Source: a virus. Taken from it: a stretch of DNA of 63,841 bases. Shown piece after piece: positions 1-40,156 of the stretch (position 1 is its first letter; every line of letters starts with the position of its first letter). The translations under genes were made by a program, and so were the position numbers. Below the pieces are notes generated by a model. The model ran no database searches. It was not told the origin of the DNA and saw nothing but the letters and a program-made list of their open reading frames with translations. The stretch is taken from the IMG/VR virus record IMGVR_UViG_3300032088_000004, positions 1-63,841 of that record; one strand, written 5' to 3'.

Positions 1-135
1 TGGACCGGTAGGAGGACCGTCGAACCACATAATATATACAACGTTGTCTCCACCAATGAGTGAGCCTTTGTTGACAGATAGCACAACACCCATATCACCA
101 TCGGCGCGCCAACGAACGAGGTCACCTTTTTTCAC
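1..135 (-). CDS. SH3-like array protein 1 (C-terminus off window)
   Basis: This is the first 45 codons of a gene that runs off the left edge. It starts with GTG behind a TGGAG Shine-Dalgarno site and begins KKGDLVRWRAD, followed by a GVVL strand and a VVYIMWFDG strand. That pattern is typical of a small SH3/KOW-like barrel. The closest relative here is the protein at 3200-3382, which shares GDLVRWRAD and the WFDG..TGP segment. The start overlaps the end of the next array gene by 14 nt. Its function is unknown. Confidence 0.8.
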   Translation of the reverse strand, partial: MKKGDLVRWRADGDMGVVLSVNKGSLIGGDNVVYIMWFDGPPTGP

Positions 136-283
136 TGACTAACTCCAGGGACACTTTGTGTGCGGAAATTACCACTCCATCCATCCTTATCACATCAAAA
201 AACCCGTTATCATTCAAAGTGCTAATGACCACACCGACAGTGCCAGGGTCGTACTTCAACTCAACTAAATCACCGACTTTCAC
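122..283 (-). CDS. SH3-like array protein 2
   Basis: A 53-residue protein with a GTG start. It opens MKVGDLVELKYDPG, has a GVVIS strand and a FFDVIRMDG strand, and ends LELVSEKR. The last seven codons carry the Shine-Dalgarno site and start of the downstream gene, with a 14-nt overlap. It is too short for many gene finders, but the start, spacing and tail match its neighbours exactly. The fold assignment is inferred from the GDLV...GVV...V pattern and the function is unknown. Confidence 0.8.
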   Translation of the reverse strand: MKVGDLVELKYDPGTVGVVISTLNDNGFFDVIRMDGVVISAHKVSLELVSEKR

Positions 284-425
284 TTAACACCTCAATCTGC
301 TTGTTGTCTTCATGTAAATCTTGTTTTGTACCACAGCTCCACAATATTGTATGCCTACCCCAACAGTGCCTTTTAATTACGATACCTACCCAATCCAAAT
401 AATAAACCAAGTCACCGACTTTCAC
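270..425 (-). CDS. SH3-like array protein 3
   Basis: A 51-residue protein with a GTG start, opening MKVGDLVYYLDWVGIVIKR, with a central HTILWSCG strand and the tail IEVLSESR. It overlaps both neighbours by 14 nt, as in the rest of the array. It is among the shortest members, so the variable loops are nearly minimal. No enzymatic motif is visible and its function is unknown. Confidence 0.8.
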   Translation of the reverse strand: MKVGDLVYYLDWVGIVIKRHCWGRHTILWSCGTKQDLHEDNKQIEVLSESR

Positions 426-600
426 TCACTACCTCCAGTGCTTTATAGCTCCAAAGCCTTTTGCCTTGGGATGTCAGAACATGAACATCCGGGTTCAAGA
501 AAGGGCACTCATCATAACTCGGACAGTTGCCAGCATAGCCAATGCCTGTCACGATGCCTGTGTGTCCTTGTCCGTTTCTAACTAAATCACCGACTTTCAC
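412..600 (-). CDS. SH3-like array protein 4
   Basis: A 62-residue protein with a GTG start. It opens MKVGDLVRNGQGHTGIVTG and ends ALEVVSESR. It is nearly identical (57 of 62 residues) to the protein at 2093-2281, about 1.7 kb away, and more distantly related to 3028-3213. This subfamily has a longer central loop with two cysteines (NCPSYDEC) and a GKRLW strand. The near-identical but non-adjacent copies point to recent recombination within the array. Confidence 0.85.
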   Translation of the reverse strand: MKVGDLVRNGQGHTGIVTGIGYAGNCPSYDECPFLNPDVHVLTSQGKRLWSYKALEVVSESR

Positions 601-748
601 TGATTAACTCCACTTGATATTGCCAAAGGTGGTTTACCTCTCCACCTATTATCACACGGAGGTGACCATTCAATGAAATCTCTACTACAACACCAATGTG
701 TTTATGCTTGATAAAGCCGACACACCTAACCAAGTCACCGACTTTCAT
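587..748 (-). CDS. SH3-like array protein 5
   Basis: A 53-residue protein with an ATG start. It opens MKVGDLVRCVGFIKH, continues IGVVVEISLNGHLRVII and ends VELISESR. It is a paralogue of the protein at 1245-1406 (42 of 53 residues identical), three genes further along. The alternation of GVV and LRVI strands fits a five-stranded barrel. It overlaps both neighbours by 14 nt. Its function is unknown. Confidence 0.8.
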   Translation of the reverse strand: MKVGDLVRCVGFIKHKHIGVVVEISLNGHLRVIIGGEVNHLWQYQVELISESR

Positions 749-929
749 TGACTATTCTCAAGCTACTTTCCGAAGCAGTGCCAATTCCACCGTGTTGCCA
801 CAGTATTCTATACTCAGGGCTATCATATCTGTTGATAAGAAAGTCAACACTGAACCCAAGAATAATTCCAACAGGTTTCTTTTTTTCCTTTGCTGGCAGT
901 GCTATACAGACTAAATCACCGACTTTCAC
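735..929 (-). CDS. SH3-like array protein 6
   Basis: A 64-residue protein. I chose the GTG at 927-929 because it sits in the conserved junction behind GGAGG. A longer frame reading upstream to 974 only runs through the coding region of the neighbour. It has a lysine-rich loop (AKEKKKP) before the GIILGF strand, a YRILWQHGG strand and the tail LRIVNESR. It is a divergent member without a close paralogue in the window. Confidence 0.8.
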   Translation of the reverse strand: MKVGDLVCIALPAKEKKKPVGIILGFSVDFLINRYDSPEYRILWQHGGIGTASESSLRIVNESR

Positions 930-1116
930 TGATAACCTCCAAGTGGTCCGGTAATGCGGTTTCTTTGATGCCATTTTGCCATAAGACTATCACCCTATCA
1001 GGTACGAAACTGAGACGCACAAGGTCATTTGATACGACTAGTCCCAGTCGCCAATGAGGTGGGTATACGTCAGCAGCGAGTGGCAGATTGATTCTCACTA
1101 AATCACCGACTTTCAC
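916..1116 (-). CDS. SH3-like array protein 7
   Basis: A 66-residue protein with a GTG start, opening MKVGDLVRINLPLAAD, with strands LGLVVS and DRVIVLWQNG and the canonical tail HLEVISESR. The VLWQNG strand recurs in several members and is probably the conserved barrel core. Both ends overlap the neighbours by 14 nt. Confidence 0.82.
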   Translation of the reverse strand: MKVGDLVRINLPLAADVYPPHWRLGLVVSNDLVRLSFVPDRVIVLWQNGIKETALPDHLEVISESR

Positions 1117-1258
1117 TGATTACCTCCATATCATCTCTATGAACACGATATTCCCCATCAGGAAATAAAACATAAAACCCGAAAGGAACAACCTTAGTGA
1201 TAATACCAAGTGTTAACTGGGGTTGACTTACCTGTCTCACCAAGTCACCGACTTTCAC
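1103..1258 (-). CDS. SH3-like array protein 8
   Basis: A 51-residue protein with a GTG start, opening MKVGDLVRQVSQPQ, with strands LGIITKVV and GFYVLFPDGEYRV and the tail MEVISESR. It is a compact member whose length is close to the minimum for an SH3-like barrel. It is coupled to both neighbours by the 14-nt overlap. Confidence 0.8.
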   Translation of the reverse strand: MKVGDLVRQVSQPQLTLGIITKVVPFGFYVLFPDGEYRVHRDDMEVISESR

Positions 1259-1406
1259 TGATTACCTCCATTTGATATTGCCAAAGATGGTTTACCTCTC
1301 CGTCTATTAACACACGGAGGTGGCCATTCACTGAAATCTCCATTACAACACCAATGTTCTCGTGTTCGATAAAACCAATACATTTAACCAAATCACCGAC
1401 TTTCAT
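1245..1406 (-). CDS. SH3-like array protein 9
   Basis: A 53-residue protein with an ATG start and about 79% identity to the member at 587-748. Differences cluster at exposed-looking positions (K/E, K/E, H/N), while the GHLRV and GEVNHLWQYQ segments are unchanged. This suggests surface diversification on a fixed core. The tail is MEVISESR. Confidence 0.8.
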   Translation of the reverse strand: MKVGDLVKCIGFIEHENIGVVMEISVNGHLRVLIDGEVNHLWQYQMEVISESR

Positions 1407-1551
1407 TTTTTAGCCTCACACTTTGACATGGTATTGGTGTAGCCTCATCATGCCACATAACCATCACATCACATCCAAAACTGCCGAAGGCACCGACTTC
1501 AACAATAATGCCCACTGAACCACGAAAAGATACCAAATCACCGACTTTCAC
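1393..1551 (-). CDS. SH3-like array protein 10
   Basis: A 52-residue protein with a GTG start, opening MKVGDLVSFRGSVGIIVEVG, with a CDVMVMWHDE strand. Its tail is RLKNESR, so only the last four residues match the consensus. The DNA here lacks a GGAGG: the next gene starts with ATG after AGGCTAAAAA, so its ribosome-binding site is weaker than elsewhere. Confidence 0.78.
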   Translation of the reverse strand: MKVGDLVSFRGSVGIIVEVGAFGSFGCDVMVMWHDEATPIPCQSVRLKNESR

Positions 1552-1744
1552 TTATCACCTCAAATTCACCAGGTCGTTCGCGGCGGATGGGGCGGTCTGG
1601 ATACAACACCATGAGCCAGTAACCGTGAAACGCAGGGTTTGGCCCGAGGGGATCAACGTGCTTGCCGGTTACGATTGCAACTGTCCCTACTTGGTGTGGT
1701 TCAATCTTGCCCCAACGCTTCTTAACTAAATCACCGACTTTCAT
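1538..1744 (-). CDS. SH3-like array protein 11
   Basis: A 68-residue protein with an ATG start and the longest member of the array. It opens MKVGDLVKKRWGKIEPHQVG, then AIVTG, a proline-rich loop (DPLGPNPAF) and a WLMVLYPD strand, ending FEVISESR. The extra length sits in the loop between the second and third predicted strands. Confidence 0.8.
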   Translation of the reverse strand: MKVGDLVKKRWGKIEPHQVGTVAIVTGKHVDPLGPNPAFHGYWLMVLYPDRPIRRERPGEFEVISESR

Positions 1745-1922
1745 TTATAACCTCTAGAAATTGTTGCCGGATTGGTCTCACCCATTCGCAATCAAACCAA
1801 TAAACATTCTGCATCAAAAGCCCGTCCTTGCCAGGATAATCATAATCTGAAACAATAATACCTGTCTTTTTAGGATCTAACTTGCCATGATACTTCCACA
1901 TCACTAAATCACCGACTTTCAC
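1731..1922 (-). CDS. SH3-like array protein 12
   Basis: A 63-residue protein with a GTG start, opening MKVGDLVMWKYHGK, with strands TGIIVSDY and VYWFDCEWVRP and the tail FLEVINESR. The WFD strand recalls the WFDG of the members at 1-135 and 3200-3382. It overlaps both neighbours by 14 nt. Confidence 0.8.
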   Translation of the reverse strand: MKVGDLVMWKYHGKLDPKKTGIIVSDYDYPGKDGLLMQNVYWFDCEWVRPIRQQFLEVINESR

Positions 1923-2106
1923 TGATGACCTCCGCTTCCGTTTCCCACAGTGGACCTGTCAAAGTGGGCAATGTTGGAGAGTATGTGCCCCACAAGACCT
2001 TGAACAATCTCCTGCGAGATGAGTACGGTGGGCGAGGAACCTCTGCCAAGACAATGCCAGCTCTTTCCATCCCCCAATTCTCTTTTACCAAGTCACCGAC
2101 TTTCAC
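1909..2106 (-). CDS. SH3-like array protein 13
   Basis: A 65-residue protein with a GTG start, opening MKVGDLVKENWGMERAGIVLAEV, with an arginine-rich loop (SSRRRL), an FKVLWG strand and the tail AEVISESR. The FKVLW strand also occurs in the member at 2334-2519. Confidence 0.8.
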   Translation of the reverse strand: MKVGDLVKENWGMERAGIVLAEVPRPPYSSRRRLFKVLWGTYSPTLPTLTGPLWETEAEVISESR

Positions 2107-2281
2107 TGATCACTTCCAGCGCCTTGTAATTCCACAACCTTTTACCGTGTGCTGTGACGACGTGAACGTCTGGATTTAAGAAAGGACACTCATCATAACT
2201 CGGACAGTTGCCAGCATAGCCAATGCCTGTCACGATGCCTGTGTGCCCTTGTCCGTTCCTAACTAAATCACCGACTTTCAT
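2093..2281 (-). CDS. SH3-like array protein 14, first gene after the internal promoter
   Basis: A 62-residue protein with an ATG start, 57 of 62 residues identical to the member at 412-600. It is the one gene in the array with a true upstream gap, about 50 nt holding a consensus sigma70 promoter and a GGAG site. It can therefore be transcribed and translated without the genes before it. The tail ALEVISESR overlaps the next gene as usual. Confidence 0.85.
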   Translation of the reverse strand: MKVGDLVRNGQGHTGIVTGIGYAGNCPSYDECPFLNPDVHVVTAHGKRLWNYKALEVISESR

Positions 2282-2308
2282 TTGAGTTCTCCATTTCTCT
2301 ATATTATA

Positions 2309-2337
2309 AGTATAACAGGTAAACCACTGAAAGTCAA
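2309..2337 (-). promoter_or_regulatory. sigma70-type promoter inside the SH3 array
   Basis: Reading on the minus strand there is a -35 TTGACT (2332-2337), a 17-bp spacer and a -10 TATACT (2309-2314), about 28 nt before the ATG at 2281. The -35 box overlaps the stop codon of the preceding gene. This splits the array into two transcription units. Confidence 0.8.
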
Positions 2338-2519
2338 GGCTTTTTTTCGCTGAGTAGCTTTAAATCGTAGTCCCAGATGTTGTCTCCAACCTTACCGTTT
2401 TGCCACAATACCTTGAACACTTTATTTAGAGCGGTTGAGTGTGGCACTGAGGCAACAACTATCCCAACCCAGCGTGGGCCGGTTGGGTGGTTGTCTTTCA
2501 CTAGGTCACCGACTTTCAT
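2334..2519 (-). CDS. SH3-like array protein 15, lacking the usual tail
   Basis: A 61-residue protein with an ATG start, opening MKVGDLVKDNHPTGPRWVGIVV, with an FKVLWQNGKVGD strand. It ends LKLLSEKKP instead of EVISESR. It is the last gene of the upstream sub-array and does not overlap the next gene. The loss of the tail exactly where there is no overlap suggests that the tail is imposed by the junction DNA and not by protein function. Confidence 0.82.
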   Translation of the reverse strand: MKVGDLVKDNHPTGPRWVGIVVASVPHSTALNKVFKVLWQNGKVGDNIWDYDLKLLSEKKP

Positions 2520-2706
2520 TGAGAAGCCTCGCGCTTTGCTCTATCTGCCTGCCTAGTGCAATGTACCTGCCATCTGTCATAACGAGCCAGTCATACTCAT
2601 AAGAATCATTCCTTGGCAACTTCTTAACTAAAATAGCAACATAACTTTTCAAGTCAAAATGGTTGCCTACACCGCGAGATAACCTCACCAAATCACCGAC
2701 TTTCAC
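2506..2706 (-). CDS. SH3-like array protein 16
   Basis: A 66-residue protein with a GTG start, opening MKVGDLVRLSRGVGNHFD, with a YVAILVKKL strand, a YDWLVMTDGRYIAL strand and the tail ARLLNESR. There is no close paralogue in the window. It overlaps both neighbours by 14 nt. Confidence 0.8.
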   Translation of the reverse strand: MKVGDLVRLSRGVGNHFDLKSYVAILVKKLPRNDSYEYDWLVMTDGRYIALGRQIEQSARLLNESR

Positions 2707-2887
2707 TGATTACCTCCAACTTAGAGACCACTTCTAGCATCGGCTGACCTAGAAAATGCCCTGACCCTAGATGCTCTTTTGACCAAAGCACATAACAGTG
2801 TGCGGAACCTACCAACGACGTGGAGGTGACAATGCCAGTACCTAACGCCTCAATAGATTGATGCCTCACCAAGTCACCGACCTTCAC
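2693..2887 (-). CDS. SH3-like array protein 17 with a doubled tail
   Basis: A 64-residue protein with a GTG start, opening MKVGDLVRHQSIEALGTGIVTS, with a CYVLWSKEH strand. The C-terminus reads LEVVSKLEVISESR, so the tail motif appears one and a half times. This looks like the scar of a past junction within the gene. Confidence 0.8.
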   Translation of the reverse strand: MKVGDLVRHQSIEALGTGIVTSTSLVGSAHCYVLWSKEHLGSGHFLGQPMLEVVSKLEVISESR

Positions 2888-3041
2888 TGACTAACTCCAA
2901 CAAATTTTTGTCCATATTGTATTGAGTGTTGGTGTCAAAGAAGAGGACCATACACCTGTCGCTCTTCAGGTCATGAGTTATAATACCAAAACGCGGGGAA
3001 GACCAGCGCGGTGTTTGTTTCACCAAATCACCGACTTTCAC
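2874..3041 (-). CDS. SH3-like array protein 18
   Basis: A 55-residue protein. I placed the start at the GTG in the junction (3039-3041), behind GGAGG. The frame stays open upstream to 3113 but without a matching start site. It opens MKVGDLVKQTPRWSS, has strands FGIITHDL and RCMVLFFD and the tail LELVSEGR. Confidence 0.8.
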   Translation of the reverse strand: MKVGDLVKQTPRWSSPRFGIITHDLKSDRCMVLFFDTNTQYNMDKNLLELVSEGR

Positions 3042-3213
3042 TGACAACCTCCATTGCTTGAGCGCTCCAGATTCTCTTGCCCTGAGGGGTCGCGACAACC
3101 ATAAAGGGACCACAAAGGTTGAGGTCGTAAATACTCTGGCTGTCGGTATAATCGAGACCCACCACTATACCAGTATCTCCGCGCTGATTTCTCACTAGAT
3201 CACCGACCTTCAC
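3028..3213 (-). CDS. SH3-like array protein 19
   Basis: A 61-residue protein with a GTG start at the junction. It is a third, more diverged copy of the 412-600 / 2093-2281 subfamily: it shares MKVGDLVRN, G.TGIV.G and QGKR.W, but the central loop has changed (a single cysteine). The tail is MEVVSESR. Comparing the three copies shows which loop evolves fastest. Confidence 0.8.
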   Translation of the reverse strand: MKVGDLVRNQRGDTGIVVGLDYTDSQSIYDLNLCGPFMVVATPQGKRIWSAQAMEVVSESR

Positions 3214-3382
3214 TAACCAACTCCAATTCATCATGATCGTTTTCTATCGGTCCGGTGGTGTTACCATCAAACCAAAGCACATAAACGATAGAACTTCCAG
3301 TAATCTTGCTGACGATTCGCGTCTGTAGAACAATGCCCATTCCATCATCGGCGCGCCATCGCACTAGGTCACCTGCCTTCAT
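3200..3382 (-). CDS. SH3-like array protein 20
   Basis: A 60-residue protein with an ATG start, opening MKAGDLVRWRADDGMGIVL, with a VYVLWFDGNTTGP strand and the tail LELVSEGR. It is the close relative of the partial gene at 1-135, so the same subfamily sits at both ends of the visible array. Its start overlaps the previous gene by only 4 nt (ATGA). Confidence 0.82.
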   Translation of the reverse strand: MKAGDLVRWRADDGMGIVLQTRIVSKITGSSIVYVLWFDGNTTGPIENDHDELELVSEGR

Positions 3383-3546
3383 GGCACGATCTTTCTCATT
3401 AAATCGTCAGACCAATGCTCTCTCTTGCCTGTGTGTTGGTCCACAAGAATGTGCCAATACTTAGTCACTTCAACAATAATTCCGTAACCCATTACCTCAC
3501 CTGAAGCGGCGCGGTATTGGACATAATCACCCACGTCTATGTTCAC
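3379..3546 (-). CDS. SH3-like array protein 21, divergent
   Basis: A 55-residue protein with a GTG start after GGAGGTTATCA. It opens MNIDVGDYVQYRAASG, so it has an extra residue and a changed N-terminus, followed by GYGIIVEVT and WHILVD strands. It ends LMRKIVP with a 4-nt ATGA overlap and has no EVISESR tail. It is clearly related but has left the standard junction format on its downstream side. Confidence 0.78.
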   Translation of the reverse strand: MNIDVGDYVQYRAASGEVMGYGIIVEVTKYWHILVDQHTGKREHWSDDLMRKIVP

Positions 3547-3694
3547 TGATAACCTCCACTGACCGTTCGTGAGTAAAAACGATTACTCCGTCAGATCTCA
3601 AGACATCAAGATAACCGTTGCCTGTGAGTAGACTCGCGATCACACCTATCAAACTGTGATTACGCCTGTGCCTCACCAAATCACCTATCTTCAT
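3527..3694 (-). CDS. SH3-like array protein 22, first gene of the array
   Basis: A 55-residue protein. I chose the ATG at 3692-3694 (MKIGDLVRHRR) because it matches the family start. The frame is open further upstream to a TTG at 3757. It has strands IGVIASLL and LDVLRSDGVIVF and ends VEVISEHRRG, two residues beyond the consensus because the next gene starts differently (20-nt overlap). It overlaps the small membrane protein upstream by 14 nt. Confidence 0.75.
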   Translation of the reverse strand: MKIGDLVRHRRNHSLIGVIASLLTGNGYLDVLRSDGVIVFTHERSVEVISEHRRG

Positions 3695-3848
3695 TTCTTC
3701 CATAAAGTTCATCCAATTTCTTTTTTTGGTCAACGCGGCGAATAACTTCTCTGACAAAATCTTCCTTCTGGCTTTGAAGGATTGCAGCCTTGATTCTGTT
3801 CCGCAAAAACAGAATCGCGAGAATTAAAAAGATAAATCCAAATTCCAT
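3681..3848 (-). CDS. Small predicted membrane protein at the head of the array
   Basis: A 55-residue protein with an ATG start. The first 15 residues (MEFGFIFLILAILFL) form one predicted membrane helix. They are followed by a charged stretch (RRVDQKKKLDELYGRNEDR) likely to face the cytoplasm. Its last codons overlap the start of the first SH3-like gene by 14 nt, in the same layout as the array. A consensus promoter ends about 7 nt upstream of the ATG, so a transcript from it would be leaderless or nearly so. Confidence 0.6.
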   Translation of the reverse strand: MEFGFIFLILAILFLRNRIKAAILQSQKEDFVREVIRRVDQKKKLDELYGRNEDR

Positions 3849-3854
3849 AATACT

Positions 3855-3883
3855 ATTCTACCTTATTATCTTAGTAATGTCAA
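3855..3883 (-). promoter_or_regulatory. sigma70-type promoter at the head of the SH3 array
   Basis: Reading on the minus strand: -35 TTGACA (3878-3883), 17-bp spacer, -10 TAGAAT (3855-3860). The expected transcription start is close to 3848, at the ATG of the small membrane protein. It lies inside the last codons of the 3858-4061 gene. Confidence 0.75.
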
Positions 3884-19760: not shown

Positions 19761-22700
19761 TCATGCTAATAACTTGAACATTTTTCTCATACTGAAAGTG
19801 GAAAATCCCCACTGTTGATTATAGTTTAACCTTGCCATGTATGGTCTATTGATGTGCACAATGTCTCTCTCTGGGTCAACGCCCCAACAGCGAATCACGG
19901 TCATTTCATTGTTGTCGTCGATTACCTTCACGACATAGAAGTTCTTTCCGTTCTTTGACTTCTTGAGTTTACACTCGCGAGGTATGAACCAAGTCACGCC
20001 AAGTTCAGGATCATATTCTGAAATAGGAGGTATGTAAAGTTCATCTAACTTTTGGCGCACCCTGGGTGTCACTACCGCGTTGATGGGGAATACACCAGTA
20101 AGGTTTACCAGGTACTCTAACTTCTCTTCTTCCGAGAAATCCCCCTCTGGTGCATACAACTCTATGTTCTCGGCTAGGTTTTTCTCCTTACGCGGGCGTT
20201 TTTCAGAGATGGCGGTCCAGAAGTGTCTTAGCCCAGTAAATCTATCATCCATCAGACCATTCAAAGCCTGAGCAAGAGTCAGTGCGTGTATCGACTTCTT
20301 GTTTAGCTTTGAGTATACGATGTCTGGGTGGAACAGAAAGTCCTCAATCACGTTGAATGGCCGGTGCTCTATAATCTGTTCAATGGCCTTGATGCCAAGG
20401 CCTTTGATGGACGACAAAGGCTGAATCAAAGTTTTGCCATCATCGCTGATTTCCCAATTGACCCCCGAAGTGTTGACGTTCAGCGGCTCTACGTTATAAC
20501 CAAGTGACTTAGCTGTTGCGATTGCTCTTTCCTTTCTTGTCTCCGGCTCTTTATCCAAGAAGGCGGCTAGCCATTCTGATGGATAGTAGTTAAGAAGATA
20601 AGCACACTGATAAGAGAGCACACAGTAGGATACAGCGTGAGACTTATTAAAACCGTAGCCGGAAAAGTACTCAAATGTTTCCCACAGTTCTCTAGCTTCA
20701 TAATCTTTCATTCCTTTCTCCAAGCATCCGCGCTTGAACTTGTCAAAGATTTTGTCTTTCTGAGCCTGGACTTCGCCAGTGCCCTTCTTAGTAAGTAGTT
20801 TTCTGAGCTTATTACCTTCATCCAGGGATAGGTCCTTGCCCAACTTGTGAGCAAGCATTGCAATCTGTTCCTGAAAAATAAGGAAGCCGTATGTCTCTTC
20901 CGTTACTTCACGCACATGGTTGTTGACGTACTCCACATCTTCTGGGTTTGACTTTGCTCCAATGTACTTTCTATCTACTCCCGCACCTAGTGGGCCAGGT
21001 CGATAGATAGAAGTGATGGCAGACAAGTCAATGATGTTGTCTGGCTTGGCATTCTTGCAGAACGATTGAGCGCCAGTCTCTGTGAACTGGAAGATACCAG
21101 CCCACTTGCCTTTGTGAAAGATGTTCTCCCAGACTGCTCGGTCTTCCAAGTTAATCTTTTCTGGATGTAGATTCTTATCGTAGAACTCTTTGATGTCTGC
21201 AAACGTAGGGTTATCCATTCCATGATGTCGTTTGAGGATACGTTCGATAGCACCCTCCAACATACGAAGTGAAGCGAGGCCAAGAATGTCAAACTTGATG
21301 AAGCCCATTGGCTCCAAGTGCCTTACATTCATACCCTCGGACCAAGGTGTTTGTCGAACTCCTCCTGAGTTGATAAGCGGCATCCACTGGTCTAGGTTCT
21401 CACCTACAACAACACCACCAGCATGGCGTGAGGCTGAACGTGTCTGTCCGTACAACTTCTCGATGTGAGTTCTGATGTGTGGATACTTCTCTAGGAAGCC
21501 TTGTAGCGATTCTGAGAACTCAACTAACTCTTCAAACGTGGGAACATAAACACCAGATGTAATTCCGTGCTTTGCCTTGGCTCGCGGTGTGGCCTCGTAG
21601 ACCATCTTGCTCGTTACATTGTTCGCCTCAGTGAATTCAATGCCGTAGAACTTTGAGATGTCTTTAATAAGAGAGCGAAGTTGCAAGGTATTCCAGTTGG
21701 TGATAGGTACGACAGAGTTGTCGCCCCATTGGTCAATCAGAACTTCCTTGAGAACCATCGGGTCAGATACATCATAATCAATATCTGGATAACCCGAACC
21801 TCCCTTAGTTAAGAACCTTTCGAATTGAAGTCCGTATTTGATAGGATCAACTTGAGTGATGTTCAATACGTACGCTACAAGAGAGCCGGCAGCGGAGCCG
21901 CGGCCAGCTCCGACTAGCTGTCGGTCCACAGCCACGTCAGCAATAGATTTCATCGTAAGGAAGTATTTGGAGAAACCTCGCTCTTCAATGACGCTTACCT
22001 CGTGTTTGAGGCGCGCCACGTAACCTTGGTCATCCTGCAAGTTCAACGACCGCAAGCCTTCGACGCACAGCGCGGCTAGCGTTTGGCCGGCTGTAGAGCC
22101 CTCCGGCACAACGAAGTCAGGCAGACGGACAGTGTTGTCTGGCAAGAACGCTTCGATTCTTTCGTGCGCAATCTCGTGAGTCCGGACTATTGAATCCCTT
22201 ACAATATTGTCGTCATATTCGGCGCCGCATTCTTTAGAATATTTGAGGTAAGACTCCCACATCTGGTCTCCGTTCTTTGGGTACAGTTCGTAGCCTACTT
22301 CTTCTACGGAGAGTGGCAGCTCCTCTGATAGATAATCTGGTCGACCTTTGCCTAACCACCCTAGACGCTTGTAAAGCTCGCGGTCCTTCCAAACGTCGGC
22401 GTTGTAATAATGAGAATCAGCAGTGGAGATAAGCTCGATTCCGAACTCGTGGTGCATCTGGATGATGTATCTATTCAGGTCGTGCTGTTCCGGGACATTG
22501 TTCCACTGCAATTCTCCATACCAGCGGTCTCCGAAAATTGATTGCATTTTTTGAGTAGTTTTTCTCATCGCCCCCAAAATAGCGTCTGGGCCGGTATCTC
22601 TATTCTCCCAATAATTACCAGCGTATACGCCACCAAGGCATGCGGATGCGGCGATGACACCTTCTCCGTATTTCTTCAGCATAGCATAGTCGACTCTCGG

Positions 22701-23195
22701 GTATCGATAGAAGTTGTCGCCAGAGTAAGATTGTGAAATCATCTTGAAGATATTTTGTAGGCCTGTTTGGTTCATCGCCAGCAAAATAAGGTGGCGACGT
22801 CGATTTAAGATTGACTTAATCTTTTTCTTTGACGAGGATTCATCCTCAACTGTTGTTCCCGAGTTGTCGGCTTCATATTCGGATTTCTTCTTCGCGGCGG
22901 AGCGGACAGTCTCGTACTCCTCCTTCCATTTTGCGACAGAAGGAATAAAGTATGCTTCGCAGCCAAAAATTGGCTTGAAGTCTTTATTTTCTTTCTGCAT
23001 CTTCTTTGCATGCAGGACTTGGTAAGCTAGTCCGTTCGCGTTTCCATGATCTGTTAGGGCCAGTGCGTCCATACCATTTTCGTAGGCGAAGTCCATATGT
23101 TCTTGCGGATATCCCAATGCGTCAAAGGGGGAACCAGCGACGGAGTGGGCATGCAGCCCAACAAATGGTAAATTGCTTTCTGTTCTAGATGTCAT
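19761..23195 (-). CDS. dnaE: DNA polymerase III alpha subunit (DnaE, C-family)
   Basis: An 1144-residue replicative polymerase of bacterial type. An N-terminal PHP domain is visible (GLHAHSVAGS at 13-22, LTDHGN at 47-52). The palm has GAGRGSAAGS (429-438) and the catalytic PDIDYDVSD (470-478), with the third aspartate in FIKFDILGL (about 636). A fingers region has IYRPGPLGAG and GYGFNKSHAVSY, and a C-terminal OB-like region has VIRCWG. Length is close to cellular DnaE. Its ATG lies in the last codons of the preceding gene. It is probably the main phage replicase. T4-type phages normally use a family B enzyme, so this is an unusual replacement. Confidence 0.95.
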   Translation of the reverse strand: MTSRTESNLPFVGLHAHSVAGSPFDALGYPQEHMDFAYENGMDALALTDHGNANGLAYQVLHAKKMQKENKDFKPIFGCEAYFIPSVAKWKEEYETVRSAAKKKSEYEADNSGTTVEDESSSKKKIKSILNRRRHLILLAMNQTGLQNIFKMISQSYSGDNFYRYPRVDYAMLKKYGEGVIAASACLGGVYAGNYWENRDTGPDAILGAMRKTTQKMQSIFGDRWYGELQWNNVPEQHDLNRYIIQMHHEFGIELISTADSHYYNADVWKDRELYKRLGWLGKGRPDYLSEELPLSVEEVGYELYPKNGDQMWESYLKYSKECGAEYDDNIVRDSIVRTHEIAHERIEAFLPDNTVRLPDFVVPEGSTAGQTLAALCVEGLRSLNLQDDQGYVARLKHEVSVIEERGFSKYFLTMKSIADVAVDRQLVGAGRGSAAGSLVAYVLNITQVDPIKYGLQFERFLTKGGSGYPDIDYDVSDPMVLKEVLIDQWGDNSVVPITNWNTLQLRSLIKDISKFYGIEFTEANNVTSKMVYEATPRAKAKHGITSGVYVPTFEELVEFSESLQGFLEKYPHIRTHIEKLYGQTRSASRHAGGVVVGENLDQWMPLINSGGVRQTPWSEGMNVRHLEPMGFIKFDILGLASLRMLEGAIERILKRHHGMDNPTFADIKEFYDKNLHPEKINLEDRAVWENIFHKGKWAGIFQFTETGAQSFCKNAKPDNIIDLSAITSIYRPGPLGAGVDRKYIGAKSNPEDVEYVNNHVREVTEETYGFLIFQEQIAMLAHKLGKDLSLDEGNKLRKLLTKKGTGEVQAQKDKIFDKFKRGCLEKGMKDYEARELWETFEYFSGYGFNKSHAVSYCVLSYQCAYLLNYYPSEWLAAFLDKEPETRKERAIATAKSLGYNVEPLNVNTSGVNWEISDDGKTLIQPLSSIKGLGIKAIEQIIEHRPFNVIEDFLFHPDIVYSKLNKKSIHALTLAQALNGLMDDRFTGLRHFWTAISEKRPRKEKNLAENIELYAPEGDFSEEEKLEYLVNLTGVFPINAVVTPRVRQKLDELYIPPISEYDPELGVTWFIPRECKLKKSKNGKNFYVVKVIDDNNEMTVIRCWGVDPERDIVHINRPYMARLNYNQQWGFSTFSMRKMFKLLA

Positions 23196-24232: not shown

Positions 24233-24995
24233 TAAATATCTCCTTCAGGTTCATTTCCAGGAACTTAACGCGTTCTGAATCTCTATAAATTGTTTTTTCT
24301 ATTTCTCGTACCGTTCTCGAACTATGTACAACCTTCGGTTTGCGGTATTTTGGGTTTCCGTTTTTGTAGTACTCCATGAAGTTACCATAGATACCTATAG
24401 AAGTCAAGTGTCTTTCCACTGCGAATCTGACCATCGAATCAGAGTACTCAAAGTCGTTTAACTGCTCTCTTGACAGAGTTGACTCAGATACACAATCAGT
24501 GACATAGTGAGCTCCGTCGACCCTGTTCGATGTGTAATAGTATATTTTACCCGCGAAGTTCGTAGGTTCTGATTTTGGTTGGAGATATTCATGTTTGCCT
24601 CCAAGGTTTGACAACTCGAAATCATCATAAACTAAGAACAAAGGCTGTGCAGACGACACAATGTCATTCTCTAGTTGCAGACCTGTGGTCTCAAAAATTT
24701 GACAAAGTTCAAACTGATACTTGTTGAGGCCTTGAAACGAAGATATCTTAATCTCTCCTTCGGAGACTCTGATGCTGCTGACTTCTTCATGATTCAAGAG
24801 TTTTCCATTTAGCGCCATAATGGTCTGAAGTCTACTCCATGAATAATCTATTCTCCTGTTTCCAAATAGATTCATTGTAGAGATATCAAAAAACATTGGA
24901 GAGTATTCTATAATTGGAAGGAAGTAGCAGTCATTTAGGAAAGCGTAGGTTATTGACTCTAGGCTCGTACCCAGCACTACTCTTTCTAGTAGCAT
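24207..24995 (-). CDS. Hypothetical protein
   Basis: A 262-residue protein that I do not recognise. The start MLLERVVLGTSLESITYAFL has a G.S...Y pattern that could be a degenerate dinucleotide-binding loop, but no further Rossmann motifs are evident. The C-terminus is basic and helical. It sits between the MopE-like lipoprotein (10-nt overlap) and the nucleotidyltransferase-like gene, and may act with the latter. Confidence 0.5.
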   Translation of the reverse strand: MLLERVVLGTSLESITYAFLNDCYFLPIIEYSPMFFDISTMNLFGNRRIDYSWSRLQTIMALNGKLLNHEEVSSIRVSEGEIKISSFQGLNKYQFELCQIFETTGLQLENDIVSSAQPLFLVYDDFELSNLGGKHEYLQPKSEPTNFAGKIYYYTSNRVDGAHYVTDCVSESTLSREQLNDFEYSDSMVRFAVERHLTSIGIYGNFMEYYKNGNPKYRKPKVVHSSRTVREIEKTIYRDSERVKFLEMNLKEIFNEASTTRP

Positions 24996-27205
24996 ACGCC
25001 TCGAACATAATCATAACGTGTTTCCGAGTGTGATGCAAATGAATAGTTGATTTCTTTCCTTGAGGCTTGGCCGTTTGCTCTTGGTAGGCAAGCTTCGTCA
25101 ATGATTGACATAAGGTCGTTGTACATACTTACTGCGTTGGAAGTCAACTCGAAGATTACACCTCCTCCTGCTAAGGTTATGTTCTCCCAGTCCTGGTTCG
25201 CGTTGCCCAACCTGGGCATTTCAGCGAATGTATAAAGTTTCAAACTCGGAGAAGCTCTCACTGCGTTTGCGACTATCCCTTCAGTGATTGGCCTTCGAGG
25301 GCCCTCTGGATCGTTGACATCTCTTAAAAATGATTGCTCGTTCTCATCTGAAAATACTATTATTACCCTGTCAGTGTCGGGTCTCCACGTAATGTTGAAG
25401 TTCTCCTTTTCGGGGATAGAAGTTGTATTTCTCCACCAGGCGACAGAGTCTAGGTCCAAGTTCGCGTTGGCTGAGAGGTTTCTAACTGCAAGGTATATGG
25501 CGTCCAAGAGCATTTCGCTGCCGGTATCCATACCTTCTACTCCCAAAGCGGCAAAGGCAGCTAAGAACTGAGCGAATGGTGCAATGTCAGACACTAATAC
25601 TAATGTTTCTTTCTCACTTCTTGGAAGCTCCTTCGGGCCTACAATCAGCCCCCACTGGAGCTGTTGTTCAGCCGAGAATTGTCCTGCGAATCGGTTTAGG
25701 GCAATCCGTACTGCCTCTATCTCTTGGTCCATGGAACCCGACCAGTCAACAATAAAAAGTATGTCTGTATCTCTTATTTCCTCTCCATAGTCTACCACTC
25801 CATCGCAGTCGTTATCCGCTCCGTCACATATTTCTTCGCTTGGTGTCACTTCCCCGGTGCACAGCGAGGGCTCAAATCGGCCGTTACGGTCGTTGCCCCA
25901 CGCTCCTTGGTGACAATACACCTCTCCGGGAATACAGACACCTACAAGCAGCGTTTCCGGCTCACCAGTGTAGCATGCTTGGGCTAGGTTCTCGTCAATG
26001 ACCTGATCACAATCTTCATCAAAATTGTTACATTCCTCCTGCACTAGTGCTATGCCTCTAATTGGGTCACACACTGGAGGTTCGGGCATCGGAACATATA
26101 CACACAGTGCTGCACAATCAGTCAACCTCATCTCTTGACAGGCTGGGTCCACACACTCACACGTCTTAAAACCTTGTCCGCACAGCAATGGTGGCTCGCT
26201 ACACGGCATCAAGTTACCAACGTCGTTAACAGTACAGAGACAATCAAGTTGTTCGTCTACCTGTCCGTCGCAGTCGTTATCTGCCCCATCGCACTCTTCG
26301 GCTGCCGGCCTAGTAGCTGTGCATGAAATCCAGTTGCCGTCTTCACAGACCTCTATACCCCTCTCGCACACTGTTTCGCATTCCCTGGCCAACTCCTCGT
26401 CAATCAACCCATCGCAGTCGTTATCAACACCGTCGCAGATGTCGGCACCAACAGGGCCACATTCGTCGCACACATTCCTTTGGCCCTCGTCAACCTCACC
26501 ATCGCAATCATCATCGAGGAAATTACACCGTTCTTCGCCAGGCAAATCTGCAGTGCACTCTTCGACTTCCCCGTTTACACAAACCCCAACTCCAGTGTCG
26601 CATGCAGAAACACAAGGGAAGAAACCTTCATCTATCAAGGAATCACAATCATTGTCGGTGCCGTCGCACATCTCCGGGTCGCATGGGCGGCATGGCAGGT
26701 GCTGAAGGCTGCCCTTATCACAAATAATCTGCTGTCTTCCTAGCGTGCCGTCTTCAAGCTGGCACTCGAACCACCTAATAAATTCTCCACTTGTTCCAGG
26801 TGGACACTCCCATTGAGTGTAACATTCGCTTTGAGAAATAATCTCCGGTGGAGGACACTCTGGGTCGGTGCCATAAACGCAAGGGATTTTATCTTCGTCA
26901 CAGACCTCGACAACTACTTGCATTACATCAATTGTTTGCAGAGGGTTGGGCGGACAGTACCATCTCTGGGTACTGCAACACTGCGGATAACATTGGCAGT
27001 ATGATTGTGTTTCCTGTATTGGGGTTTGCGCGCACCTCTCCTCTCTTGTCAGCTCAGGTTCCGGTGGAATCGGAGGAGACCAGTCCAGTACATACACATC
27101 ACTAAATGATGAATCTGGAGAAGTAATTCTAACCCCTTCATCTACTTGAGTCGATACAGTGTCTGTGCATGCTGTTAGTAACAGTAAAATTGCAATTATT
27201 CTCAT
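24986..27205 (-). CDS. Secreted lipoprotein with MopE-type repeats and a VWA domain
   Basis: A 739-residue protein. A signal peptide with a lipobox (MRIIAILLLLTAC, cysteine 13) predicts a lipid-anchored, exported protein. A long cysteine-rich region follows, with six copies of a DNDCDG-type motif (for example CDGADNDCDGQVDE), the calcium-binding-like repeat of MopE family proteins. Next is a von Willebrand A domain with an intact MIDAS site: DWSGS, then a threonine in MDTGSE and an aspartate in VIIVFSDENE. Such proteins are typical of Myxococcota-like bacteria and are very unusual in phages. It may coat the infected cell or mediate adhesion or exclusion (inference). Confidence 0.9.
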   Translation of the reverse strand: MRIIAILLLLTACTDTVSTQVDEGVRITSPDSSFSDVYVLDWSPPIPPEPELTREERCAQTPIQETQSYCQCYPQCCSTQRWYCPPNPLQTIDVMQVVVEVCDEDKIPCVYGTDPECPPPEIISQSECYTQWECPPGTSGEFIRWFECQLEDGTLGRQQIICDKGSLQHLPCRPCDPEMCDGTDNDCDSLIDEGFFPCVSACDTGVGVCVNGEVEECTADLPGEERCNFLDDDCDGEVDEGQRNVCDECGPVGADICDGVDNDCDGLIDEELARECETVCERGIEVCEDGNWISCTATRPAAEECDGADNDCDGQVDEQLDCLCTVNDVGNLMPCSEPPLLCGQGFKTCECVDPACQEMRLTDCAALCVYVPMPEPPVCDPIRGIALVQEECNNFDEDCDQVIDENLAQACYTGEPETLLVGVCIPGEVYCHQGAWGNDRNGRFEPSLCTGEVTPSEEICDGADNDCDGVVDYGEEIRDTDILFIVDWSGSMDQEIEAVRIALNRFAGQFSAEQQLQWGLIVGPKELPRSEKETLVLVSDIAPFAQFLAAFAALGVEGMDTGSEMLLDAIYLAVRNLSANANLDLDSVAWWRNTTSIPEKENFNITWRPDTDRVIIVFSDENEQSFLRDVNDPEGPRRPITEGIVANAVRASPSLKLYTFAEMPRLGNANQDWENITLAGGGVIFELTSNAVSMYNDLMSIIDEACLPRANGQASRKEINYSFASHSETRYDYVRGVCY

Positions 27206-38185: not shown

Positions 38186-39029
38186 CAGCTATTTGTTGAA
38201 TTTTTGGTGAGAAGTATTCTACGTAAATGTAGTCACTTTCATATTGTGTTGGATAAATCCCAAACGAAACCTTTGTTTCGTCTGTAATCCTTGATTTCAC
38301 TTTGTTTGTAATTGTTCTGAACAAGTTTTCTTCCGTCTTTAGTTTTTCTTCATTGATACCATAATAGTATACCACTTCTACCTCTTGATTGCAAGGAAAA
38401 AACATCAAATCGTCTTTCTCTAATGATCCCAGGCCGATAGTAGTAATCCTGCAAGATTCTTTTTGTCGCTTAAATGTGGACGTAATCGGCTTTGTGTTTT
38501 TAAACACGTCCAACATATAGTAAGTGCTTGTAAACACATGGTTTATTTGGTCATAGTAGTCGAATACATTAGTGGAACCCGCCAACTCCTCCAACCGCAG
38601 GTTGGATACGAGACAAATTTTTCCAAACAGGCCGCTTCGGGCGTAATTTTGCAATATGCCGCGGCAGGCTCTTTCTTGGAGTGTCTTCTCTTCAGATAAG
38701 ACCTCAACCTCGGGCATGAAATACACGACATCCATTTTCACACCTTTAAGGTGGAGTGAATGGAGGGCCCGCAAAGTGAGGCCCGACGAGGAGGCGCCTC
38801 CGCAGACAAACACTGTGCAGGTTTCCTCGATTGTGCCAAGCCACTTATCCAGCTTTTTTGTGTCCATCGCCTCATATTCTTCTGGGCCATCCAGCTGAGG
38901 CAGGTTAAAATGGTATTTTGTTGTTTTTTGATTTTCAGTACAAATCGTGTAGGGCTTATACATCTTGTATTGACCTAGTTGCTTGACTATATTAGATCCT
39001 GCGGTTCCTATTCCTAGTACTGTCTTCAA
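38163..39029 (-). CDS. FtsZ/tubulin-like protein
   Basis: A 288-residue protein. The N-terminus VLGIGTAGSNIV (4-15) matches the first nucleotide loop of FtsZ/tubulin (GvGGaG.N), and VFVCGGASSSGLTLRAL (73-89) matches the tubulin signature GGGTGTG. Then come KMDVVYFMPEVE, QERACRGILQNY, VSNLRLEELAG and a helix DYYDQINHVF, in the same order as in FtsZ. It is shorter than FtsZ, with a reduced C-terminal domain. It starts with a TTG coupled to the polA-like stop (TTGA). Phage tubulins such as PhuZ position DNA. Whether this one polymerises is unknown. Confidence 0.65.
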   Translation of the reverse strand: MKTVLGIGTAGSNIVKQLGQYKMYKPYTICTENQKTTKYHFNLPQLDGPEEYEAMDTKKLDKWLGTIEETCTVFVCGGASSSGLTLRALHSLHLKGVKMDVVYFMPEVEVLSEEKTLQERACRGILQNYARSGLFGKICLVSNLRLEELAGSTNVFDYYDQINHVFTSTYYMLDVFKNTKPITSTFKRQKESCRITTIGLGSLEKDDLMFFPCNQEVEVVYYYGINEEKLKTEENLFRTITNKVKSRITDETKVSFGIYPTQYESDYIYVEYFSPKIQQIAVDTDNRI

Positions 39030-40156
39030 ATTCCTAAATCCTTTAGATTTCCAAAATTATTGCCTGTCTTGCATGTGCTTCTGAATGGGCCCCACGGTGT
39101 TTCTTCAAACTGGGACTTTATTTCTCTGAGCATTTTAATGTCTTCTTGCGATATATCGATAATAATCGAATCGTGCAGCGTGAACGCTATATAACTCTTT
39201 TTGTTTTTTAGCATCTTCATAATCTTGTATGCGTTTTGTATAACTATATCAGAAGTTGTCGATTGAAGCAAGTAGTTTTGTGCTTTTCTTTCGTCCACCG
39301 CCAAAACTCTACCAAATGGGGTTTTCAGCGTCTGGTTTTCAGGGGCAAAAAAATCTCGAAAAATTAGCCGCGAAAAAAAATCGTCAAATCGACTTTCTGT
39401 ACTCGAAGGATTGTACAACCACGCAAACAACTCCACCTTCGCCCTAGCGCGTTCTATCTCTCCATTGAACACATTCTCCACGACCCACTCATGAATGTCC
39501 TCCTGTGGCTGTTCTCGGCCTGATAAAGCTATTAGCGTACGTATCTCGGCGGCATTTAAATCTAACTCGACGAAAGCATCGTTCTGAGGGGTGATTTTAT
39601 ACCTGTCTCCCTTCTTCAAAGTCATAATGGGTACTGAGCCCTTCTTAGTAGTCAATCTTCCTGTTGCCGAGCCAAAGATGTTATATTGCACTCTACCTTT
39701 CTTGCCCTCGAATATCAGGTCTTGATGAGCTATCTCGGATGTCAGGACGTGGGCCTTGTGTAGGATATCATAATCGTCTTCTCGCTTGGTCGTCTTGTAA
39801 AGAGAGTGTAGTGCTTGCTCTCTCATTTTAAACCATTTACTCAATTGATGCTCGGGAAGCAAGTCAAAGAAGCACTCCTCTGTTAAGTCTATTTTTGCTG
39901 TTGCTGCGGCCTTTGCATGCGACGTCAATCTAGTCATGTATTCTCCGTACAAATCAACATCAGGCGAGTGAGTCGATAAATCATCGCTCCTAAGCCTCAA
40001 GTGCAAGTACTCAAATTTCTCATCATCTAGAATCGGAGAATGCTTCCAACACAAGTCATATTCATCCATCAAGTCTTGGTCCGGATTGAAAATAAATTGG
40101 TTTTTGTGGAAAATCCCCTTGCAGTTGTCTTTTATGTCAAGAGTTTGTAGAATCAA
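39026..40156 (-). CDS. Short, divergent family A DNA polymerase
   Basis: A 376-residue protein with only the polymerase part of Pol I. It has SATGRLTTK (motif 1-like), motif A VELDLNAAEIRTL (196-208), a motif B remnant RARAKVELFAWLYN (235-249) and motif C FTLHDSIII (325-333), with S where Pol I has E. There is no 3'-5' or 5'-3' exonuclease domain. The start is a TTG with AAGGA upstream and overlaps the preceding gene by 20 nt. With DnaE also present it may do repair or Okazaki-fragment filling, or be partly inactive. Confidence 0.85.
   Translation of the reverse strand: MILQTLDIKDNCKGIFHKNQFIFNPDQDLMDEYDLCWKHSPILDDEKFEYLHLRLRSDDLSTHSPDVDLYGEYMTRLTSHAKAAATAKIDLTEECFFDLLPEHQLSKWFKMREQALHSLYKTTKREDDYDILHKAHVLTSEIAHQDLIFEGKKGRVQYNIFGSATGRLTTKKGSVPIMTLKKGDRYKITPQNDAFVELDLNAAEIRTLIALSGREQPQEDIHEWVVENVFNGEIERARAKVELFAWLYNPSSTESRFDDFFSRLIFRDFFAPENQTLKTPFGRVLAVDERKAQNYLLQSTTSDIVIQNAYKIMKMLKNKKSYIAFTLHDSIIIDISQEDIKMLREIKSQFEETPWGPFRSTCKTGNNFGNLKDLGI

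Follow-up and report, generated by a model that had tools for sequence, protein, structure and literature searches.

A cassette array of overlapping mini-genes for predicted SH3-like barrels, shuffled among uncultured T4-like phages

Introduction

Small genes of T4-type phages are reportedly reshuffled at conserved boundary elements, the PeSLs, which are composite promoter-terminator motifs understood to be intergenic (Arbiol 2010 and Comeau 2014, cited through PMC4503421). The cyanophage S-PM2, a T4-like marine phage, carries an "ORFanage", a run of small genes of unknown function whose order is rarely conserved (PMC4503421). Integrons hold co-directional single-gene cassettes with a constant join, which are gained, lost and reordered singly. 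As for small barrel proteins, it has been reported that MotB, an early host-takeover protein of T4, has a predicted KOW/SH3-like domain (PMC7827196), and five-stranded barrels of the KOW, Tudor and SH3-like type occur in NusG (KOW), PcrA (Tudor, 5dma) and Mind bomb (SH3_15). Here, a locus is described from a virus genome fragment of 63,841 nucleotides (IMG/VR record IMGVR_UViG_3300032088_000004, hereafter the window), in which a row of over twenty tiny, related genes with overlapping ends behaves as a set of exchangeable cassettes in a family of uncultured, mostly marine T4-like phages. No description of such arrays was found in the literature searched.

Organization of the array

A preliminary description of the sequence reported 22 successive minus-strand genes within positions 1-3848, with shared N- and C-terminal motifs and nearly every junction overlapping by exactly 14 nt, and this observation is confirmed. 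All 22 genes exist at that place, are co-directional and encode 51-68 aa, start with GTG or ATG and follow the consensus MKVGDLVR...GIV...VL(W)..G...LEVxSESR; the last gene is cut by the contig end, so 22 is a minimum. Of the 21 joins between SH3-like genes, 18 overlap by exactly 14 nt, the exceptions being a 4-nt overlap at 3379-3382, a 20-nt overlap at 3527-3546 and a 52-nt spacer at 2282-2333. A 19th 14-nt join links a non-SH3 mini-gene to the first SH3-like gene, so that the SH3 array proper occupies 1-3694. The features, all on the minus strand, are as follows.

3855..3883 (-), sigma-70-like promoter TTGACA-17-TAGAAT at the head of the array operon, 11 of 12 consensus bases
3681..3848 (-), non-SH3, single-TM-like leader mini-gene ending in the same 14-nt join (tail NEDR)
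3527..3694 (-), SH3-like cassette 1, first of the array
3379..3546 (-), SH3-like cassette 2, divergent, with a 20-nt join upstream
3200..3382 (-), SH3-like cassette 3, with a 4-nt join upstream; AlphaFold2 model with pLDDT 88.7 and five strands
3028..3213 (-), SH3-like cassette 4
2874..3041 (-), SH3-like cassette 5; 96% DNA identity to a cassette in L129 and in L134 (two relatives of the window), neighbours in L129 unrelated
2693..2887 (-), SH3-like cassette 6
2506..2706 (-), SH3-like cassette 7; 88% DNA identity to L134, at a different array position
2334..2519 (-), SH3-like cassette 8; 98% DNA and 100% aa identity to an L134 cassette, with the promoter spacer at its 3' side
2309..2337 (-), internal sigma-70-like promoter TTGACT-17-TATACT
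2282..2333 (-), 52-nt spacer that travels with cassette 8
2093..2281 (-), SH3-like cassette 9; 87% DNA identity to cassette 19, homology ending near the joins
1909..2106 (-), SH3-like cassette 10
1731..1922 (-), SH3-like cassette 11
1538..1744 (-), SH3-like cassette 12; AlphaFold2 model with pLDDT 85.9; 94% DNA identity to an L134 cassette
1393..1551 (-), SH3-like cassette 13
1245..1406 (-), SH3-like cassette 14; 84% DNA identity to cassette 18
1103..1258 (-), SH3-like cassette 15
1103..1128 (-), example of the dual-coding join (one of 19): ribosome-binding site GGAGGT, start GTG and the 14-nt overlap GTGAAAGTCGGTGA, whose TGA ends the upstream gene
916..1116 (-), SH3-like cassette 16
735..929 (-), SH3-like cassette 17
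587..748 (-), SH3-like cassette 18
412..600 (-), SH3-like cassette 19, paralogue of cassette 9
270..425 (-), SH3-like cassette 20
122..283 (-), SH3-like cassette 21
1..135 (-), SH3-like cassette 22, truncated by the contig end

Since a profile of all 22 members was too diverse for finding related loci, a junction pattern and neighbour genes were used instead, and 1,570 genes of the family were found on 140 contigs, with the same fixed orientation in all 140. Among 985 close joins in independent contigs, 690 are 14 nt and about 30% are not, and the 14-nt overlap is not due to chance, since it is also found in 78 of 110 joins in loci retrieved by thymidine kinase rather than by the junction, and in 441 of 731 joins that do not match the search pattern. 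At 60% identity the members form 1,103 clusters, of which 779 are singletons. By contrast, blastn and tblastn searches against INPHARED gave no significant match in cultured phages with the queries tried, and no family match was obtained in S-PM2, Flavobacterium phage immuto, RM378 or T4 in a search run without a positive control.

Predicted fold and family assignment

AlphaFold2 gives two divergent members, cassettes 3 and 12, a five-stranded SH3-like barrel, which places the proteins in the SH3-like barrel superfamily at fold level, by prediction only. The strands are conserved, while three loops carry the variation in sequence and length. The best topological match is the Tudor domain of PcrA (5dma, TM 0.68/0.76), although Foldseek matches to solved structures are weak in E-value (best 0.057), as expected for 60-residue barrels, and do not point to one function. 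No tested window member passes a Pfam cut-off, and among 100 members only scattered weak hits were seen, such as KOW (PF00467) with an E-value of 0.005 in 1 of 100; PHROG hits were few and of unknown function. PADLOC models, which list defence rather than anti-defence proteins, matched 0 of 100 members.

Exchange of cassettes between relatives

Related phages carry such arrays with differing number and order of genes, a result on which the preliminary description had staked its reading. Between close relatives the order is shuffled and single cassettes are shared at 82–98% DNA identity while the neighbours are unrelated, and identity falls to background inside the join. Over 114 and 132 cassette pairs with unrelated neighbours, identity is at baseline upstream of the start codon and past the stop and is high between them, with 26 independent cassette families on 37 contigs. 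The window and L134 share cassettes at 94–98% DNA identity, whereas the thymidine kinase of the backbone is only 69% identical. L134 and a further relative, L135, are identical over 15.3 kb on one side and 99.4% identical on the other; a simple deletion was expected between them, but the sequences show a replacement, in which two cassettes are replaced by one, with one breakpoint inside the join and the other in the last part of the gene, near the next join. Meanwhile, the cassette cores are under purifying selection, with omega of 0.13–0.17 (about 0.15), so that the idea of rapid mutagenesis is not supported and the diversity is old standing diversity.

Constraints on the joins, the tail and the spacers

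The codon for Gly4 is GGT in 100% of 14-nt joins, compared to 58–75% of far or edge starts, and the codon GTT for Val3, which would change the upstream Arg to Trp, is depleted (6 of 495 against 40 of 328, p about 1e-11). Just downstream, the Leu6 and Val7 codons vary equally in joined and unjoined genes. The constant C-terminal tail is imposed by the overlap and is not part of the barrel design; the idea that the ESR tail is a functional motif of the barrel was rejected, since ClpP, thymidine kinase, HD, DUF3310, DUF2061 and GIY-YIG proteins that precede a cassette end in a similar extension beyond their domain. In addition, many spacers inside arrays carry host-type sigma-70 promoters: good matches (2 or fewer mismatches) were found in 38 of 90 spacers against about 1.7 in shuffles.

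Proposed mechanism

It can be seen above that the interpretation given in the preliminary description is partly supported: the predicted SH3-like fold and the cassette array with constant joins and diverse inserts, now shown comparatively, hold, the tail and the origin of the diversity are to be read differently, and the suggested host-binding or anti-defence purpose remains inference. The best explanation, held with fair confidence, is an exchangeable-cassette operon in lytic T4-like phages, in which each cassette is one complete gene for a single-domain SH3-like barrel, running from start codon to stop codon. In this view, the first 14 nt of every cassette (RTG AAR GTN GGT GA) also close the upstream reading frame, and the last coding bases of the upstream gene (LEV = TGGAGGT) are the ribosome-binding site of the next. 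Because each join has the same sequence and frame, homologous recombination between joins, of the same or different phages, would insert, delete, replace or reorder single cassettes without breaking either reading frame or translation initiation. The analysis itself demonstrates the array, its joins, the shuffling, breakpoints in the joins, purifying selection, promoters in spacers as consensus matches and the barrel fold as a prediction, whereas phage recombination of the UvsX/RecA type as the engine, early transcription by host RNA polymerase, expression as protein and the job of the proteins are inferred from metagenomic sequence. Homologous recombination is the likeliest engine, as a RecA/UvsX-type protein is encoded in the window and no tyrosine or serine recombinase or reverse transcriptase was detected in 20 large relatives. 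As for the job of the proteins, binding and modulation of host proteins or nucleoprotein machines, in takeover or counter-defence, is considered most likely, but only tentatively, with each phage carrying its own sampled set.

A further reading, possible but short of an even chance, is that the array is a repertoire locus, a translation-safe cassette system in which the recombination joint is embedded in overlapping reading frames and the ribosome-binding site, so that any cassette can be plugged next to any other, letting a phage population draw sets of host- or defence-binding SH3-like barrels from a shared pool of more than a thousand types. The system would be a concrete, testable answer to how lytic phages swap small accessory genes quickly without breaking operons, the recombination site, stop codon, start codon and ribosome-binding site being one sequence. 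It also exposes a pool of at least 1,100 distinct small barrel proteins (60% clusters) under purifying selection in uncultured phages, a natural source of candidate host-takeover and counter-defence proteins, with no counterpart found in the cultured phages searched here.

Alternative explanations

The alternative that survives best, although it is considered unlikely, keeps the same cassette genetics but gives the barrels a different purpose, as KOW-type nucleic-acid or RNA-polymerase binders that regulate the phage's own transcription or translation and are not host-directed variants. Weak profile and fold matches to NusG KOW, ribosomal uL24, PcrA Tudor and MutS2 KOW domains speak for it, but hypervariable loops and a different set in every phage are unlike conserved regulators, and most clusters have no second member.

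Ordinary tandem duplication, in which paralogues expanded by unequal crossing over and diverged in place while the 14-nt overlap is just compact translational coupling with no part in exchange, is improbable. Paralogous pairs do exist in the window (412-600 and 2093-2281; 587-748 and 1245-1406), and the sequence RTGAARGTNGGTGAY has TGA in both other frames, so that 14- and 4-nt overlaps are the natural outcome for any upstream frame (690 and 113 of 985 close joins). However, cassettes are shared between phages at higher identity than the backbone, in different order and with homology ending in the joins, and divergence in place gives neither; this explanation is already largely refuted by the identity profiles of the shared cassettes.

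A site-specific, integron-like system, in which a dedicated recombinase recognises the join and moves cassettes, is slightly less likely still. The fixed orientation, the single-gene cassettes and breakpoints confined to a short conserved site would agree with it, but family searches of the 20 large relatives found no tyrosine recombinase (PF00589, 0 of 20, while controls ring in 14 of 14), no serine recombinase (PF00239) and no reverse transcriptase (PF00078, 0 of 20), the last of which also speaks against a diversity-generating retroelement. Join conservation is explained by two reading frames plus the ribosome-binding site, and no attC-like element was seen in joins profiled for sequence only.

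Finally, a metagenome assembly artefact, in which short-read assemblers joined unrelated fragments at the repeated joins, is very unlikely, since exact matches across window joins are at most 29 nt (median 8), pairs of contigs from separate metagenome datasets agree in order over 24, 21, 13, 10 and 9 cassettes, and shared cassettes in shuffled positions mostly differ by 1–18% in DNA and so are not the same reads.

Comparison with known systems

T4 MotB resembles the present proteins in its predicted KOW/SH3-like domain, but it is a single, well-conserved, two-domain gene without an array. The matches to KOW, Tudor and SH3-like domains share the five-stranded barrel but are sub-threshold. The run of small genes in S-PM2 shows no constant 14-nt join in its annotation. 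Compared with integron arrays, the cassettes are likewise co-directional and exchanged singly at a constant join, but no integrase was found in the relatives examined, no intergenic attC was seen, translation is coupled through the 14-nt overlaps, and nearly all inserts share a fold. With the PeSL-mediated shuffling of T4-type phages, the array shares the exchange of small genes at a conserved boundary motif, early expression being inferred here, and many spacers carry sigma-70-like promoters that travel with a gene. However, most joins are overlapping coding sequence without a spacer and only a minority are spacers with promoters; whereas PeSLs are understood to be intergenic, the exchange point here lies inside overlapping coding sequence, with ribosome-binding site, start and stop in under 30 nt, and the cassettes are of one predicted fold family.

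Genomic context and organization of the array

The window is a 63,841-bp virus record, and its genes, which include a T4-type major capsid protein, a RecA/UvsX-type recombinase, a DnaB-type helicase, a DNA polymerase III alpha, GroEL, a ClpP-type protease and thymidine kinase, mark a T4-like phage distant from cultured ones. The nearest named capsids and GroEL are those of Flavobacterium phage immuto at 44-46% identity, while Rhodothermus phage RM378 is further off. The features of the window considered here are as follows:

1-3694, minus strand: 22 co-directional SH3-like genes of 51-68 codons
3681-3848: non-SH3 mini-gene that precedes them and is joined to them in the same way
3883-3855: sigma-70-like promoter at the head of the array, TTGACA-17-TAGAAT
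2337-2309: sigma-70-like promoter in the 52-nt spacer of the array
19761-23195 and 39026-40156: a DnaE-type DNA polymerase III alpha as well as a family-A polymerase fragment-like gene, which is unusual for a T4-like phage
24986-27205: a 739-aa cysteine-rich protein with an N-terminal signal-like sequence, repeated (E/D)xCDGxDNDCDGxxD motifs and a possible VWA-like C-terminal part, odd for a phage

Of the 21 joins between the SH3-like genes, 18 overlap by exactly 14 nt, and the others are an overlap of 4 nt, one of 20 nt and a 52-nt spacer. The array runs off the contig, so 22 is a minimum.

Structure of the join

In gene orientation, a typical join is TGGAGGTAATCA GTG AAA GTC GGT GA(T), which is read as LEV-I-S-E-S-R-stop in the upstream frame and as (M/V)-K-V-G-D in the downstream frame, with GGAGGT as the ribosome-binding site a few bases before the start codon. 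Any RTG AAR GTN GGT GAY start has TGA in both other frames, which explains why 14-nt (690) and 4-nt (113) overlaps dominate the 985 close pairs. Sampling bias was checked in two ways, and it was found that 78 of 110 close joins are 14 nt in loci found through thymidine kinase, as are 441 of 731 among joins not matching the search pattern. Both frames are selected. For instance, Gly4 is GGT in all 14-nt joins but in 58-75% of far or edge starts; similarly, GTT at Val3, which would turn the upstream Arg into Trp, is depleted (6 of 495 against 40 of 328). The start codon is GTG in 59% of 14-nt joins and in 12% of far ones, which sets Ser or Asn in the upstream tail. However, the codons just past the overlap (Leu6, Val7) vary as freely in joined as in unjoined genes, so no larger DNA site is conserved.

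The tail is imposed by the join. Proteins unrelated to the barrel that precede such a gene (ClpP, thymidine kinase, HD, GIY-YIG, DUF3310 and DUF2061) end in a similar short extension (ESR, EDR or a variant) beyond their Pfam domain; some of the 107 upstream frames in this comparison may be chance ORFs, but the Pfam-supported ones are not. When an SH3-like gene has no 14-nt join downstream, the tail is usually different.

Distribution in relatives

A search with a junction pattern gave at least 120 stretches in IMG/VR and five metagenome-assembled contigs in GTDB genomes (L188, L189, L190, L191 and L192), which are possibly phage contigs binned with bacteria and could give host hints, while no significant match was found in INPHARED with DNA or with three member proteins. 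After removal of overlaps between loci, there are 1,570 genes on 140 contigs, always on one strand per contig; before that, there were 1,434 distinct proteins in 1,103 clusters at 60%, of which 779 were singletons. In addition, 25 phage records of 135-293 kb hold 2-30 copies each.

Cassette-by-cassette shuffling

The array is shuffled cassette by cassette, as comparison of the window and related loci (numbered with L) shows. L129, whose thymidine kinase is 99% identical in aa and 95% in DNA, has 21 array genes in the same place. The flanking DNA is 93% identical in one block down to window position 3673, i.e., 21 nt inside the first cassette, and from there cassettes are shared in a different order, with many unmatched. 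A small lipoprotein-like gene sits inside the SH3-like array of this locus (L129:15009-15254, plus strand), so non-SH3 inserts are tolerated. L134 and L136, which are 98% identical over 13.5 kb of flank, share array pieces only as blocks whose ends lie near joins. L134 and L135, identical for 15.3 kb on one side and 99.4% on the other, differ by the replacement of two cassettes by one, with identity ending 17 nt into the gene and resuming in the last part of the gene, near the next join. The window and L134 share cassettes at 94-98% DNA although thymidine kinase is 69% identical, which implies horizontal movement of single cassettes.

Over all data, there are 372 cassette pairs at 80% aa or more on different contigs, of which 83 have both neighbours unrelated, 57 have both related and 13 are mixed, while the rest lack a comparable neighbour on at least one side. 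For pairs with unrelated neighbours, which come from 26 independent cassette families on 37 contigs, identity is at the unrelated baseline upstream of the start codon, rises above it inside the 14-nt overlap, stays at 0.8-0.9 through the gene and drops to baseline right after the stop. Exchange therefore occurs within the overlap.

Possible mechanism of exchange

No match to tyrosine recombinase, serine resolvase or reverse transcriptase families was found in 20 large relatives, in a search whose controls were detected. The window encodes a RecA/UvsX-type protein, and its joins share exact stretches of up to 29 nt. Homologous recombination or strand annealing at the joins is the likeliest route, although this is inferred. 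In addition, a GIY-YIG endonuclease gene precedes an SH3-like cassette in two loci, L072 (8635-8949, plus strand), where it is joined to the cassette by the 14-nt overlap, and, by sequence resemblance, L083; it could start recombination in the array as a possible local initiator, but it is not general.

Selection and promoters

Core codons, with joins excluded, show an omega of 0.15 (bootstrap 0.13-0.17; 140 pairs, each gene used once), which points to functional proteins and old diversity. Of 90 spacers between array genes, 38 have a sigma-70-like promoter with two or fewer mismatches, against about 1.7 in shuffles, although some spacers are from near-identical phages and are therefore not all independent. 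The window has one such promoter at the head of the array and one in the 52-nt spacer, and this spacer travels with its cassette. Near-identical promoter spacers (TTGACTTTCAGTGG..TATACT) recur beside different cassettes in several phages (window 2309-2337 and array spacers of L129, L134, L135 and L073), as if the promoter were itself a mobile part. These promoter matches fit transcription by host RNA polymerase early in infection, as inferred from sequence alone.

Predicted fold and putative function

Two members sharing about 29% identity both model as five-stranded barrels (pLDDT 88.7 and 85.9). The matches among solved structures are SH3-like/Tudor/KOW domains (PcrA Tudor, NusG KOW and CAP-Gly), none of them significant by E-value, while one viral predicted structure passes 0.001. 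Profile conservation sits in the strands (GDLV, GIV, VxW, LEVI), and variation in sequence and length sits in three loops, from which binding domains with variable loops are inferred. T4 MotB is a precedent for a KOW-bearing early takeover protein (PMC7827196). Host-directed takeover or counter-defence is the best guess for the purpose of these proteins, but it is a tentative one, somewhat less likely than not, and self-regulation of phage expression is the main rival. The array, its joins, the exchange within the overlap, the selection on the cores and the promoter matches in spacers are seen in the sequences themselves, whereas the recombination route, early transcription, expression of the proteins, their binding and their purpose are inferred, and the barrel fold is predicted.

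Comparison with known shuffling systems

The preliminary description, which reported at least 22 tandem SH3-like mini-genes with nearly every junction overlapping by exactly 14 nt, is right in its observation and understated. Its reading of the locus as a protein-coding cassette array that could supply many variants of a host-binding or anti-defence barrel is partly supported, since the cassette nature is borne out by the relatives and the host-directed purpose remains an inference. The locus is a cassette-exchange system related in spirit to the PeSL shuffling of T4-type phages, but it differs in that the joint is buried in overlapping coding sequence.
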